A stretch of 44,147 bases of DNA. Source: Acidobacteriota bacterium. Its GTDB lineage: Bacteria; Acidobacteriota; G020349885. Positions 16,985-33,029 of this stretch are shown piece by piece (position 1 is the stretch's first letter; every line of letters starts with the position of its first letter). The stretch is taken from positions 1,825,589 through 1,869,735 of the forward strand of contig CP070701.1 of assembly GCA_020349885.1 (NCBI GenBank), written 5' to 3'. A program made the translations under genes and the position numbers. Below the pieces are notes generated by a model. The model saw only the letters and a list, made by a program, of their open reading frames with translations. It ran no database searches and was not told the DNA's origin.

Positions 16985-17005
16985 CCGCCCATGATACCAC
17001 TTCCC

Positions 17006-17085
17006 GACGTACGCATCGGGGCAAGCCCCGACCCCGCTCTACAAAAAACCGGCAACTCCGGCAAAAGCGGCAATTCCGGCCAAAT
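17006..17085. repeat. Composite dispersed intergenic repeat, copy 2
   Basis: CCCGACGTACGCATCGGGG (17003-17021), followed by GGCAACTCC, GGCAAAAGC, GGCAATTCC and GGCCAAATT units. It lies directly upstream of the promoter of the dockerin-protein gene. It belongs to the same family as copies at 1464, 21185-21440 and 30071. Confidence 0.65.
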
Positions 17086-17088
17086 TAC

Positions 17089-17127
17089 TTGAAATTCTGG
17101 TGAAACGGCATATAATACATGTAGGAG
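17089..17127 (+). promoter_or_regulatory. Promoter and ribosome binding site of the dockerin-protein gene
   Basis: TTGAAA (17089-17094), a 16-nt spacer and a perfect TATAAT (17111-17116). AGGAG (17123-17127) follows, 6 nt before ATG 17134. The leader is very short. Confidence 0.7.
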
Positions 17128-17133
17128 ACGGCC

Positions 17134-20100
17134 ATGACACGAAAGCGGTGGCTCATCCTTTCGGTTGCGGCAGTGGGGGCTGGCTTTATGCCGGTGGCAG
17201 TATGGGGAGGTGAAGCGCCTGCGTCCCCAGGGAAAGGCCCGCCGAAGGCCGAAGGGGAAGTCGAGATTTCTTCTCTCTCCTTCGACCTGAACGAAGTCGT
17301 CCGCACCGTCCGGAAAAACCGCGGCCTTCCCGAAGAGCCTCCCAAGCAGGGTTTCCATGCCGAAGCAAGGGGTGAGCGTCCGTTTGTTTCCAAAGGGAAT
17401 ACCTTCTCGCATGAGACGCCGCGATTCCGATCGGAGGTCGGGGAGGACGGGCTGAGGTATTTCGCGCAAGGAGGTAAGGAAAAACCTGATTTCGAAATTC
17501 TTTCTGTAAGCTTCGAGCGGGGAGGCCATACGCAGACGGTGTTCGGAAAAAATTTCCTGGAGGAGCACGCGCCCGGCCTGCTTCGGGGAGAAACGCGCGA
17601 CGGCGTTACGCCTTACGTGAGAAACCGCGGGGAGGGAGGGGTAGAGCTTTACTGGACGATCGACGAGCCGCTCGGCCCCGAGGCTTCGGCGTTGCGCGTG
17701 CGTCTTGCGATCCGGGCTGTGGGCGAGCCGCGGGAGCATGATGAAGGGCTGGTGTTTCCGGCCTGGCGGGAAGAAGGCCAAGTGACCTTATCCAACGTAA
17801 CCGTGGTTGACGCGGCGGGGCGGCGGGAGCGAGCTCGGCCTACGCTCGCAACCAGTCAGGAAGTCCTGTTCGAGGTGTCGAGTGAATTTCTCGCCTCCGC
17901 CCAATATCCCATCCTTATCGACCCGACAGTGGGGCCGGAGTTTCCGGTGAATCCGGATCCGAGTCCGGCGATTGATCTGGCGCCAGGCAACCAGTGGAGC
18001 CCCTCCGTGGCTTCGAACGGGACGGACTATTTCGTCGTGTGGGGGGATGGCCGCGGCACGAGCTACGACATCTACGGAACGCGCGTAGCCCCGGATGGGA
18101 CGGTGCTTGACCCCACGGGCATCGCCGTCTCCACGGCGGCGGACGACCAGCGGTCACCCTCCGAGGCTTCAAACGGGACGGACTATTTCATAGCGTGGCA
18201 GGACCGCCGAAACGGGACAGACCGGGACATCTACGGGACGCGCGTGGCCTCGGATGGGACGGTGCTCGATCCCACGGGCATCGCCGTTTCCACAGCGGCG
18301 AACCACCAGTGGTATCCCTCCGTGGCTTCACACGGGACGGACTATTTCGTCGCGTGGGGGGGCGGCGCGAGTTGGGACATCTACGGGGCGCGCGTGGCCT
18401 CGGATGGGATGGTGCTCGACCCCACGGGCATCGCTGTTTCCACGGCGGCGGACGACCAGTTTGCCCCCTCGGCAGCTTCGAACGGGACGGACTATTTTGT
18501 CGCGTGGCGGGACTGGCGGAGCGGGACGGACTACGACATCTACGGGGCGCGCGTAAGCTCGGCGGGAACGGTGCTCGACCCCACGCCCACGGACATCGCC
18601 GTCTCCACGGCGGTGGGTGACCAGAATTGGCCCTCCGTGGCTTCGAACGGGACGGACTATTTCGTCGCGTGGCAGGACCGGCGGAACGGTAGCGCAAACG
18701 TCTACGGGGCGCGGGTGCGGGCGTCCGATGGCTTGCTCCTTGATGGCCCGCCTGACACGGGAGGCATCGCAGTCTCCACAACAGCGGAAAGCGGCGTGTG
18801 GGGCCTCTCCGTAGCTTCAAACGGGACGGACTATTTCGTCGTGTGGGATGGCTGGAACATCTACGGGGCACGCGTGGCCTCGGATGGGACGGTGCTCGAC
18901 CCCGCCGGCATCGTCATCTCCACGGTGGCCGACCTCCAGCAGCTTCCCTCTGTGGCTTCGAACGGGACGGACTATTTCGTCGCGTGGTTTGACTGGCGGA
19001 ACTGGATGTTCCCGACAGGCTACGACATCTACGGGGCGCGCGTAAGCTCGGCGGGAACGGTGCTCGACCCCACGCCCACGGACATCGCCGTCGCCACGGC
19101 GGCAAGCACCCAGTGGAACCCCTCCGCGGCTTCAAACGGGACGGACTATTTCGTGGCATGGGAGGACTGGCGGAACGGCAGCGCAAATCGGGACATCTAC
19201 GGGGCGCGCGTGGCCCCGGATGGAACGGTGCTCGACCCCACGGGCATCGCCGTCTCCACGGCGGCAATCTGGCAGCAGCGCCCCTCGGTAGCCTCGAACG
19301 GGACGGACTATTTCGTCGCGTGGCAGGACTGGCGAAGCGGCGCGGAGTTGGACATCTACGGAACGCGCGTGCGGGCGTCGGATGGCTTGCTCCTTGATGG
19401 CCCGCCTGACACGGGAGGCATCGCCGTCTCCACGGCGGCGGACTGGCAGGAGTATCCCTCCGTGGCTTCGAACGGGGCGGATTATTTCGTGGCGTGGGAA
19501 AGCGGCTCCAACATCTACGGGGCACGCGTGGCCTCGTTGGATGGGGCGGTGCTCGACCCTGCGGGCATCGCTGTCTCCACGGCGGCAGACAACCAGCGGT
19601 TTCCCTCCGTGGCTTCAAACGGGACGGACTATTTCGTCGCGTGGGAGGACTGGCGTAGCGGCACGGAGTTGGACATCTACGGGGCGCGCGTGGCCTCGGA
19701 TGGGACGGTGCTCGACCCTGCGGGCATTGCCGTCTCCACGGCGGCGGACAACCAGTTTACCCCCTCAGCAGCCTCAAACGGGGCGGACTATTTCGTCGCA
19801 TGGGAGGACTGGCGGAACGTCAGGTTCAATTACGACATCTACGGAACGCGCGTGGCCTCGGACGGGACGGTGCTCGATACTTCGGGCATCGCCGTCTCCA
19901 CGGCGGCCAACGACCAGCGGTCCCCCTCCATAGCTTCGAACGGGGCGGACTATTTCATCGCGTGGTATGACAACCGAGGCGGCGCGGGCTACGATTTATA
20001 CGGGGCGCGCGTGGCTTCCTTAGATGGGACGGTGCTCGATGCAGCGGGCATCCTCATCCAGCAAACCACCTATGGCGATGTTCATCCCGCCGTCGCCTAT

Positions 20101-20532
20101 TCGGCCTGCGGAAAATATCTCGTGGCCTACTACCGTTTCTACGACGACCCGAACTTTCAATCCCAGCGCGTCATGGCGCGCCTCTTCTATGAGGATACGG
20201 ACGGCGACGGCGTGCCCGACGCTTGCGACGCGTGTCCCGGTTTTGATGACACGCTGGACGGGGACGGCGACGGCATTCCTGATGACTGCGACCCCTGCCC
20301 AGCGATTCCAAGCGCTCCCTCAGGCTGCACCCCTGCCGGCTCCATCTACCCGACCGACGTCAACTGCGACGGCTGCGTGGACGGCATGGACCTCGGCTTC
20401 ATAGGCCGGGCGTTCGGCGAGTTCTGCGGCGACCCGTACTACAACGCCGACGCGGACCTTGACGCAAGCGGCGCCGTGGACGGCGCCGACCTCGACGCCC
20501 TGGTCGCGGACTTCGGCTCGGGCTGCACGTGA
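17134..20532 (+). CDS. Secreted beta-propeller-like repeat protein with thrombospondin-3 motifs and C-terminal dockerin
   Basis: A 1132-residue exported protein. Residues 1-26 are a signal peptide (MTRKRWLILSVAAVGAG, cleavage near VWG-GEA). Residues about 27-280 form a unique N-terminal region. Residues about 286-1020 hold 13 clear plus one degenerate repeats of 48-58 residues with the core PSVASNGTDYFVAW, then DIYGARV, then GTVLDPTGIAVSTAA; this looks like blades of beta-propellers. DTDGDGVPDACD and DGDGDGIPDDCD are thrombospondin type-3 calcium motifs. The last 60 residues are a type I dockerin with two calcium loops, DVNCDGCVDGMD and DLDASGAVDGAD. No catalytic domain is recognised. The dockerin should dock onto a cohesin, and the next gene, 26 nt downstream, encodes a cohesin-like lipoprotein. 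The protein is probably tethered to the cell surface that way. Confidence 0.88.
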   Translation: MTRKRWLILSVAAVGAGFMPVAVWGGEAPASPGKGPPKAEGEVEISSLSFDLNEVVRTVRKNRGLPEEPPKQGFHAEARGERPFVSKGNTFSHETPRFRSEVGEDGLRYFAQGGKEKPDFEILSVSFERGGHTQTVFGKNFLEEHAPGLLRGETRDGVTPYVRNRGEGGVELYWTIDEPLGPEASALRVRLAIRAVGEPREHDEGLVFPAWREEGQVTLSNVTVVDAAGRRERARPTLATSQEVLFEVSSEFLASAQYPILIDPTVGPEFPVNPDPSPAIDLAPGNQWSPSVASNGTDYFVVWGDGRGTSYDIYGTRVAPDGTVLDPTGIAVSTAADDQRSPSEASNGTDYFIAWQDRRNGTDRDIYGTRVASDGTVLDPTGIAVSTAANHQWYPSVASHGTDYFVAWGGGASWDIYGARVASDGMVLDPTGIAVSTAADDQFAPSAASNGTDYFVAWRDWRSGTDYDIYGARVSSAGTVLDPTPTDIAVSTAVGDQNWPSVASNGTDYFVAWQDRRNGSANVYGARVRASDGLLLDGPPDTGGIAVSTTAESGVWGLSVASNGTDYFVVWDGWNIYGARVASDGTVLDPAGIVISTVADLQQLPSVASNGTDYFVAWFDWRNWMFPTGYDIYGARVSSAGTVLDPTPTDIAVATAASTQWNPSAASNGTDYFVAWEDWRNGSANRDIYGARVAPDGTVLDPTGIAVSTAAIWQQRPSVASNGTDYFVAWQDWRSGAELDIYGTRVRASDGLLLDGPPDTGGIAVSTAADWQEYPSVASNGADYFVAWESGSNIYGARVASLDGAVLDPAGIAVSTAADNQRFPSVASNGTDYFVAWEDWRSGTELDIYGARVASDGTVLDPAGIAVSTAADNQFTPSAASNGADYFVAWEDWRNVRFNYDIYGTRVASDGTVLDTSGIAVSTAANDQRSPSIASNGADYFIAWYDNRGGAGYDLYGARVASLDGTVLDAAGILIQQTTYGDVHPAVAYSACGKYLVAYYRFYDDPNFQSQRVMARLFYEDTDGDGVPDACDACPGFDDTLDGDGDGIPDDCDPCPAIPSAPSGCTPAGSIYPTDVNCDGCVDGMDLGFIGRAFGEFCGDPYYNADADLDASGAVDGADLDALVADFGSGCT
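17989..20190 (+). repeat. Intragenic tandem repeat array (about 145-175 nt units)
   Basis: About 14 units encode the propeller-like repeats. Some stretches are nearly identical at the DNA level, for example the segment near 18555-18602 against 19036-19083, and the one near 18720-18770 against 19375-19425. This indicates recent duplication or gene conversion within the gene. Confidence 0.85.
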
Positions 20533-20558
20533 CGAGGGAGGCTTAGGAAAGAAGCGCC

Positions 20559-21122
20559 ATGAACAGATTCTTTCGCCTTGTCGTTTTGGGCGCCGTCCTT
20601 TTGGCCGTAGCCTGCGGCGGCGGGGGAGGAGGCGGCGGCTCGGGGCCGAGTTACACCGCGACCTACACCGGGCCCGGCAACACGGCTCCGGGAAACGTCG
20701 TTCTCGAACTCAACAGCGAGGGCGGCACGCTTGTGCTCGACGTCGTGGTCTACGGGCCGCTTGCGAACGTCTACAACATCGCCTTCCGCCTTCAGTACGA
20801 CCCGGCGATTCTGGAGTACCAGTCGGCGAGCGAAGGCGCGGTTTTCGACGCCGACAACTGCAACGGCGGGGACTGCACAACGTTTACCCTGGACAGCGCG
20901 ACGGTGTCGGACAAGCTCGTCGTGGGCCTGACGCGCAAGGAGCCGGGCGTCGGCGTCGCCCTGGGTGCGGGAGCGAACGTGGTTATGACGCTTACGTTCA
21001 CGCCGACGGCGGAGGGCGGGCCGTCCGCTTTCGATTTTGTGGCGGGCACGCGGGAGCTCAAGGACGCCGACGGCACGGAGCTCTCCACGGGCTGGTTCGC
21101 GGGCACGGCCACGGTGACGTAG
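20559..21122 (+). CDS. Lipoprotein with cohesin-like domain
   Basis: A 187-residue protein. Residues 1-19 are a lipoprotein signal ending LLAVAC, with Cys19 as the lipidation site, followed by a glycine-rich linker. Residues about 45-187 look like one cohesin module: ANVYNIAFRLQYDPAILEYQ is the typical N-terminal strand pair, and the rest is a beta-sandwich pattern with TLTFTPTAEGG near the end. Cohesins bind dockerins with calcium. The gene follows the dockerin-bearing repeat protein by 26 nt, with GGGAGG in the gap, so both are likely co-expressed and partners. Anchoring in the outer or inner membrane would hold the dockerin protein at the cell. Cohesin assignment rests on pattern only and needs a profile search; related cohesin-fold domains exist in other surface proteins. 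Confidence 0.75.
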   Translation: MNRFFRLVVLGAVLLAVACGGGGGGGGSGPSYTATYTGPGNTAPGNVVLELNSEGGTLVLDVVVYGPLANVYNIAFRLQYDPAILEYQSASEGAVFDADNCNGGDCTTFTLDSATVSDKLVVGLTRKEPGVGVALGAGANVVMTLTFTPTAEGGPSAFDFVAGTRELKDADGTELSTGWFAGTATVT

Positions 21123-21184
21123 GGCGTAGTCGGGGGCCAGGGATCAAAGGCCAGTTGTTAGGGACTGGTCAATCTTTCTCGTAG

Positions 21185-21245
21185 TGGTTTGAAGGGCGGC
21201 ACAGCCGCCCCGACGCACGCATCGGGGTAAAATCCGGCAAATCCG
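21185..21245. repeat. Composite dispersed repeat, copy 3a
   Basis: A GGGCGGCACAGCCGCCCC palindrome (21193-21210) runs into CCCCGACGCACGCATCGGGG, then TAAAATCCGGCAAATCCG. It is the same palindrome-plus-GGCAAATCC order as in the other copies, here in inverted order. Confidence 0.6.
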
Positions 21246-21252
21246 ATGGTCG

Positions 21253-21352
21253 GCCCCCCCTTTTGTAAAGGGGGTTGGGGGGATTACAAAGAATTAAGAA
21301 GAAGCATCAAAGTAATCCCCCTTATTCCCCCTTTAGCAAAGGGGGAAAAACC
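21253..21352. repeat. Long imperfect inverted repeat (hairpin or MITE-like element)
   Basis: Two arms of about 35 nt (21253-21287 and 21312-21350) are reverse complements with few mismatches around a 24-nt loop. Each arm is itself palindromic (CCCCCTTTAGCAAAGGGGG-like). No ORF is inside. The structure is that of a folded extragenic repeat. Confidence 0.7.
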
Positions 21353-21432
21353 GGCAAGTCCGGCAAATCCGGCAAAAACGGCAAATCAGGCAAATCCGGC
21401 AAAATCGTTGACGAATCGCCGGGGCGGCACCA
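21353..21432. repeat. GGCAAATCC tandem repeat with GACGAATCGCCGGGGCGGCA tail, copy 3b
   Basis: About seven 9-nt units (GGCAAGTCC, GGCAAATCC, GGCAAAAAC and variants) run from 21353 to about 21406, followed by GTTGACGAATCGCCGGGGCG. The tail is almost identical to the minus-strand copy at 30071-30093. Confidence 0.75.
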
Positions 21433-32505: not shown

Positions 32506-32571
32506 ATGACGCGGTCATTCAGTGTTTTCATGGCAGTAACCCCATATCGAATAGGAAGCCTTAGCGTATGA
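32506..32571 (+). CDS. Possible 21-codon upstream ORF (leader peptide)
   Basis: ATG 32506 opens a frame of 21 codons (MTRSFSVFMAVTPYRIGSLS then V) that ends with TGA at 32569-32571. The stop overlaps the transporter ATG (32568-32570) as ATGA. Its ATG lies 8 nt after the -10 box, so it would be translated without a leader. It may simply couple translation to the transporter, since the transporter has only a weak Shine-Dalgarno site (AGGAAG, 12 nt upstream). Not recognised as a known peptide. Confidence 0.4.
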   Translation: MTRSFSVFMAVTPYRIGSLSV

Positions 32572-33029
32572 AAAATGCGCATCTTATGCTCCTTTTTACG
32601 ACCTTGTCCATCCTCGTATGGGGCGTTGCGGGCATCTTTGGGAAGCTTGCCTTCCATAAGAAAATGCTTCCGTTTTCCGTTTTTCTGGCCCAAGTGATTG
32701 TGTATCTGGTTGCCGGTTCTGTTTTAGTGCTTCTTTCGACTCGCATCGAAAGCATCTCACCGTGGCGCTCCCCATGGAACATTTACGGTTGGTTTTCGGG
32801 AATGGCGATGATGCTGGGCCTTTTGTTTTTTACCCTAGCGCTTCACAAAGGACAAGCTGTCGTCGTGGTGCCGCTTACGGCGCTCTATTGCGGCGTGTCT
32901 CTTGTGCTTGGTTATGTGGTTTTGGGAGAGCGGCCGACGCCCCTGCAATGGCTCGGCATCGCCTTGGCGCTTGTAAGCGTGGCGCTGATTCTCTCGGGTC
33001 CTCTCACAAGCACCGCCCAAGCAAAGTAG
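32568..33029 (+). CDS. Half-size EamA/DMT-type membrane transporter
   Basis: A 153-residue membrane protein with about five hydrophobic segments. It corresponds to one EamA repeat: MLLFTTLSILVWGVAGIFGK, then GMAMMLGLLFFTLALHKGQA, then VVPLTALYCGVSLVLGYVVL, GERPTPLQWLGIALALVSVA and LILSG. Full-length EamA exporters have two such units, so this one must dimerise. Substrate unknown; families of this size export amino acids, amines or nucleotide-sugars. The start is ATG 32568, overlapped by the stop of a possible upstream ORF. It lies just outside the phage remnant and is convergent with the saccharopine-dehydrogenase-like gene. Confidence 0.78.
   Translation: MKNAHLMLLFTTLSILVWGVAGIFGKLAFHKKMLPFSVFLAQVIVYLVAGSVLVLLSTRIESISPWRSPWNIYGWFSGMAMMLGLLFFTLALHKGQAVVVVPLTALYCGVSLVLGYVVLGERPTPLQWLGIALALVSVALILSGPLTSTAQAK

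Follow-up and report, generated by a model that had tools for sequence, protein, structure and literature searches.

Does a large secreted protein that ends in a dockerin find its anchor in the lipoprotein encoded by the next gene? This question is raised by two adjacent open reading frames (ORFs) in a 44,147-nucleotide stretch of an Acidobacteriota genome (assembly GCA_020349885.1, contig CP070701.1, positions 1,825,589 to 1,869,735), hereafter the window. ORF1 (17134..20532, 1132 amino acids) encodes a secreted propeller-like protein with a C-terminal dockerin, and ORF2 (20559..21122, 187 amino acids) encodes a cohesin lipoprotein. Coordinates of this locus are positions in the window, and its features all lie on the forward strand. 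We consider it probable that the two genes make up an operon whose products work as plug and socket, tethering ORF1 to a membrane non-covalently and with the help of calcium.

In this model ORF2, once exported, would receive a lipid on Cys19 and be retained in the outer membrane, where a glycine-rich stalk would present its one cohesin. ORF1 would be exported by the general secretory (Sec) pathway, and its dockerin would fold around two calcium ions and plug into the ORF2 cohesin. Docking would keep the propeller body, which is probably what binds a ligand, at the cell envelope. The window would then be one case of a phylum-wide design, with the dockerin as a portable C-terminal tag and a single-cohesin lipoprotein as the usual socket.

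The dockerin and cohesin domains

The C-terminus of ORF1 is a type I dockerin with two loops (20353..20523). The calcium loops, DVNCDGCVDGMD (20356-20391, residues 1075-1086) and DLDASGAVDGAD (20455-20490, residues 1108-1119), fit the type I pattern D-x-[DN]-x-[DS]-G-x-V-D-x-x-D, are spaced 33 residues apart and are kept in relatives. The Pfam Dockerin_1 model (PF00404, cut-off 22.9 bits) scored slightly below its cut-off on full-length ORF1 (20.5 bits) and above it on the isolated tail (24.3 bits) and in the genome search (25.5 bits), which upholds an earlier note that had read a two-loop dockerin from the sequence. The dockerin family profile matched ORF1 with an E-value of 1.1e-26, the ORF1 tail being itself a member of that profile. 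Against solved structures, the single ORF1 sequence retrieved the cellulosomal dockerin 2y3n_B (E 0.0026), and the family profile retrieved dockerins from the PDB, 2y3n_B among them at E 1.2e-10.

ORF2 follows after a 26-nucleotide spacer (20533..20558) that carries a ribosome-binding-like AGGAAAG sequence. It begins with a lipoprotein signal peptide and lipobox (20559..20615), LLAVAC-GGGGGGGG, with AVAC at residues 16-19 and a poly-Gly spacer after Cys19. This cysteine is invariant in the family alignment A1 (20/20 members), and we infer that ORF2 is lipidated there. Pfam Cohesin (PF00963) matches residues 55-157 (20721..21029) and, at 27.6 bits, exceeds its cut-off of 24.1 (E 3.8e-6); the family alignment carries the domain on to the C-terminus. 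The same model matches 13 of the 20 family members at E <= 0.1. A search of solved structures with the single ORF2 sequence found no cohesin; with the family profile the top matches were all cohesins (3l8q, E 7e-8). The earlier note's reading of the downstream gene product as a lipoprotein that, in its mature part, looks like one cohesin thus agrees with the coordinates, the lipobox and the Pfam match, and the absence of a cohesin hit that it had named as refuting was not what the Pfam search returned.

Gene order, co-occurrence and matching trees across the phylum

To the earlier note the pairing was an inference from co-location. We searched the phylum with profiles built from 20 lipoprotein cohesins (A1) and 17 dockerins (A2), and found 74 lipoprotein-type cohesins in 46 genomes. 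A dockerin gene lies directly upstream on the same strand of 44 of the 74 (27 genomes, 9 families), a fraction perhaps slightly inflated, though not by orders of magnitude, by some A1 seeds picked from loci whose neighbours had already been inspected. None of the 74 has a dockerin gene downstream. With 0.06 expected by chance, chance co-location is ruled out. The dockerin-to-cohesin domain gap in adjacent pairs is 6-135 nucleotides (median 50), and several pairs show a 4-nucleotide start/stop overlap (e.g. loci L060, L064, L068 and L094-L096). PF00404 dockerins occur in 45 of the 46 genomes with a lipoprotein cohesin, compared with 115 of the 350 others (Fisher p 9e-19). At four loci (L063, L096, L097, L100) a dockerin gene, a lipoprotein cohesin gene and a second cohesin-like gene stand in a row; at two others (L056, L072) a lipoprotein cohesin without a dockerin neighbour sits directly 3' of a polypeptide deformylase-like (def) gene.

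The cargo attached to these dockerins is exchanged across the phylum: subtilase, thermolysin, GDSL esterase, Kelch, PQQ propeller, FN3 and beta-helix proteins all carry the tag. Linkage also varies. Each of the 14 genomes of family f46 has one A2-type dockerin unlinked to the lipoprotein cohesin, and the one such protein tested by Pfam (L107) is GDSL esterase-like. Unlinked GDSL-dockerin proteins also occur in genomes G325 and G014 (L109, L110), and in family f29 a GDSL-dockerin gene lies directly 5' of the lipoprotein cohesin (L068).

Distances among the cohesins correlate with those among the dockerins encoded next to them (Mantel r 0.55, p 2e-4, 27 pairs), and the same three sub-groups of 7, 4 and 4 pairs are recovered in both trees. 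The cohesin tree supports the sub-groups better than the short dockerin tree does, and the third cohesin group includes one unpaired cohesin. Three genomes with two or three pairs each (G262, G318, G144) hold members of two groups, with cohesin and dockerin placed consistently. The chance of such label agreement would be about 2e-6 for independent rows; the rows here are not fully independent. Given the linkage of the genes, the agreement speaks for inheritance as a matched unit and not for binding itself. Gene order, phyletic co-occurrence and matching trees together move the pairing past the co-location from which it was first drawn.

These results also bear on whether ORF2 shares only the fold of a cohesin and serves another ligand, with the ORF1 loops as structural calcium sites and the genes co-expressed for some other reason. 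Cohesin-like domains are indeed present in proteins, such as TMEM132, for which no dockerin binding is known, according to the portion of that report available to us (PMC6030884), and some lipoprotein cohesins have no dockerin neighbour. We nevertheless regard this explanation as very unlikely given the strict gene order, the 45/46 co-occurrence, the matched trees and the fact that the profile matches are dockerin-binding cohesins.

Several observations weigh against tethering by plug and socket. As to the nine-stranded jelly-roll fold of cohesins, the single-sequence AlphaFold model of ORF2 is all-beta with a predicted local distance difference test score (pLDDT) of 48, which is no confident model; its best Foldseek match is the cohesin 6kgf (E 0.007). 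Thirty of the 74 lipoprotein cohesins lack an adjoining dockerin, including one in the source genome between rnr and infB, and the family counts are phylogenetically non-independent. Linked genes are co-inherited, so tree agreement is weaker evidence here than it would be for unlinked genes. Finally, the +2 glycine of ORF2 says little about the choice of membrane in this lineage.

Partners, location and cargo in the source genome

The source genome, a single 2.40-Mb contig, encodes three lipoprotein cohesins and as many intact dockerin proteins. Besides ORF1 there is an unlinked dockerin-subtilase of 1085 amino acids with subtilase, PKD and thrombospondin type 3 (TSP3) domains (dockerin at genome positions 32521-32700), and a Kelch/DDDGD-repeat protein of >1700 amino acids (dockerin at 408083-408259). 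The further lipoprotein cohesins are the solitary one noted above (195 amino acids, at 1558944) and one of 413 amino acids with a DDDGD-repeat insert within its cohesin (about 1236777-1238018; L055 5778-7019). The DDDGDG calcium repeat of this lipoprotein also fills much of the Kelch protein (L084 6075-11285). A fourth cohesin, at 1796680, does not have a lipobox-type start. About position 252065 a 68-residue reading frame 5' of a prs-like gene (L085 5970-6176) retains a single dockerin loop, probably the leftover of a lost dockerin gene.

With two further dockerin proteins and two further lipoprotein cohesins present, the ORF2 socket may serve several cargoes, and the term self-contained, which the earlier note applied to the pair, is too strong. 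ORF2 could be a shared socket for any dockerin protein of the genome (propeller, subtilase or Kelch giant) and not mainly for its neighbour, an explanation that keeps the same mechanism without exclusive pairing, is compatible with most of the plug-and-socket account and in our estimate falls just short of an even chance. Three plugs and three sockets coexist in one closed genome, and the ORF1 and subtilase dockerins are 92% identical; these two proteins also have their N-terminal region in common, the first part of the ORF1 N-terminal domain starting the subtilase as well. The sub-group-matched trees elsewhere, including those within multi-pair genomes, point instead to pair specificity. In the trees the solitary paralogue joins the ORF2 cohesin, and the subtilase dockerin joins that of ORF1, so that pairing within the source genome may not be exclusive.

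The same inventory bears on a cellulosome-like multi-enzyme complex, to which the shared domain families might point. The genome cohesin searches returned single-cohesin ORFs only and no multi-cohesin scaffoldin. In the three dockerin proteins, the Kelch giant being covered in all but its N-terminus, we identified neither a glycoside hydrolase nor a cellulose-binding domain; the cargo is propeller-like, subtilase and Kelch. The earlier note's observation that the unit lacks a glycoside hydrolase thus extends to the dockerin cargo of the source genome, and with neither scaffoldin nor glycoside hydrolase cargo identified we reject a cellulosome, which we find scarcely credible here.

Where the pair resides is a separate matter. 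Two Omp85 proteins are encoded in the source genome, making an outer membrane likely. A Sec signal and a lipobox by themselves place both proteins in the periplasm, and we recognised no dedicated surface-export gene next to ORF1-ORF2; ORF2 might therefore sit on the inner face of a membrane with ORF1 held in the periplasm and not displayed. This is unlikely in our judgement, because family cargoes are typically extracellular (subtilase, thermolysin, esterase) and because relatives encode secretins with their own C-terminal cohesin (Secretin PF00263 plus Cohesin PF00963; L007, L010, L012). Contact between such secretins and dockerin cargo at the exit pore is conceivable. The source genome has two secretins, a plausible exit route, and the genome cohesin searches gave no match at either. 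Extending the tethering model to the whole phylum, dockerin tags and single-cohesin lipoproteins may constitute a general, sortase-independent means of fixing secreted proteins on the outer membrane. Each pair would have its own specificity, and cohesin-bearing secretins would perhaps hand over cargo at the exit pore. We put this forward tentatively, as a generalisation somewhat more apt to fail than to hold.

ORF1 itself begins with a signal-peptide-like stretch, MTRKRWLILSVAAVGAGFMPVAVWGG (17134..17211), which also starts an own-genome paralogue at 1536011. It continues with an N-terminal domain (17251..17928) common to that paralogue and to an Archangium protein. Repeat analysis, the structure model and Foldseek place about 14 propeller blades of about 53 residues at 17986..20190 (13 clear, the last degenerate), in repeat families D1-D3 with a motif spacing of 47-58 residues. 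The AlphaFold model, made from four sequences, shows a repeated four-strand pattern with pLDDT mostly 60-90 in the repeats and a mean of 60 overall. Foldseek returned propellers such as LRP6, TolB and GH43, with low template modelling (TM) scores and from a model of moderate confidence. The propeller-like body proposed in the earlier note is thus supported, with ring closure putative, and the repeat count would suit two seven-bladed units. Two thrombospondin type 3-like calcium repeats, DTDGDGVPDACDAC and DGDGDGIPDDCDPC (repeat D13), form a linker between propeller and dockerin (20194..20298). Matches of ORF1 to Pfam DUF3659, Pfam LRR_TTSS and an NCBIfam CDP-diacylglycerol diphosphatase model were rejected as summed repeat scores with no passing stretch.

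A search of named genomes, which may not take in records close to the window, returned only three distant homologues of ORF1. The Archangium relative shares the N-terminal domain and the repeats (best segment 43% identical, match over residues 97-1032) and has an N-terminal lipobox-like stretch, a MYXO-CTERM-like tail and no dockerin; the lipoprotein cohesin family was not found in its genome. The own-genome paralogue has the same leader and repeats and a C-terminus that is not a dockerin. The dockerin thus behaves like one of several C-terminal tags that can be swapped.

The flanks are consistent with transcription of ORF1 and ORF2 as one message, judging from sequence motifs. A promoter-like TTGAAA-N16-TATAAT (17089..17116; 11 of 12 consensus matches in a consensus scan, weak evidence taken alone) ends 17 nucleotides 5' of the ORF1 start codon. 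A terminator-like hairpin of 8 pairs followed by AATCTTTCTC lies 3' of ORF2 (21149..21170), a type of site that turns up in shuffled sequence too. Further out, a nine-base minisatellite (GGCAAnTCC; 17045-17083 and 21230-21412) and the palindrome CCCCGACGnACGCATCGGGG (17002-17021 and 21208-21227) stand on both sides of the unit and possibly mark it as a transposed cassette. No further exact copy of the palindrome was found in the window or in the other loci examined. An inverted repeat resembling a miniature inverted-repeat transposable element, CCCCCTTTTGTAAAGGGGG / CCCCCTTTAGCAAAGGGGG, occupies 21256-21345, its arms 52 nucleotides apart.

Comparison with known cohesin-dockerin systems

To our knowledge, few general tags are known that hold secreted proteins on Gram-negative cells. 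If the tethering model is correct, a lipoprotein socket and a portable plug with swapped enzymes or binding proteins would be the analogue in nature of display systems engineered from cohesins and dockerins, and many 'orphan' cohesins and dockerins outside cellulosomes would gain a concrete role. Orthogonality testing could also draw on the many putative cohesin-dockerin pairs of the survey, some of which share a genome. The locus looks like one case of a portable, non-cellulosomal tether made of a dockerin tag and a cohesin lipoprotein; non-cellulosomal cohesin-dockerin pairs as such are known from elsewhere. In the literature covered, which did not include the review of Peer et al. (2009), so that an earlier report is possible, we found no description of an operon that joins a single-cohesin lipoprotein to a dockerin protein and in which the cargo is exchangeable.

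In Archaeoglobus, binding between a cohesin and a dockerin outside cellulosomes is established (PMC9705933), and modules of this kind have been proposed to act in anaerobic methanotrophic (ANME) archaea and their partners (PMC9012536, PMC10553843), in Cloacimonadota (PMC8542988) and in Planctomycetes (PMC6461901). AfuCoh76/AfuDoc75 of Archaeoglobus fulgidus is, like the pair described here, a non-cellulosomal cohesin with a dockerin; it is a high-affinity orthogonal pair of demonstrated binding that has been used to attach proteins to E. coli. It differs in being archaeal, and no lipobox with a single-cohesin design, cargo exchange or phylum-wide gene order is described for it (PMC9705933). 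ANME archaea and their sulfate-reducing partners also have extracellular cohesin-dockerin proteins without cellulose degradation, and in Hot-Seep1 the two domains are adjacent (PMC10553843, PMC9012536). The ANME proteins include scaffoldin-like forms that carry as many as five cohesins and have S-layer anchors, whereas the anchor here is one cohesin on a lipoprotein. The 'planctosome' proposed for freshwater Planctomycetes (Nemodlikiaceae) resembles the present system in being non-cellulosomal, with a cohesin in the anchor, thrombospondin-3 repeats and peptidase cargo; it relies on a 2,210-residue lamin-tail anchor plus an adaptor, and the sections of that report available to us describe neither a small lipoprotein nor a two-gene operon (PMC6461901). 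Within the same phylum, secretins with a C-terminal cohesin place this domain in an outer-membrane component, as proposed for ORF2, but they are pore proteins of a secretion or pilus system and not lipoproteins. Clostridial anchoring scaffoldins likewise fix dockerin proteins to the cell by a cohesin-dockerin plug, but with several cohesins, SLH or sortase anchors and glycoside hydrolases, none of which is seen here.

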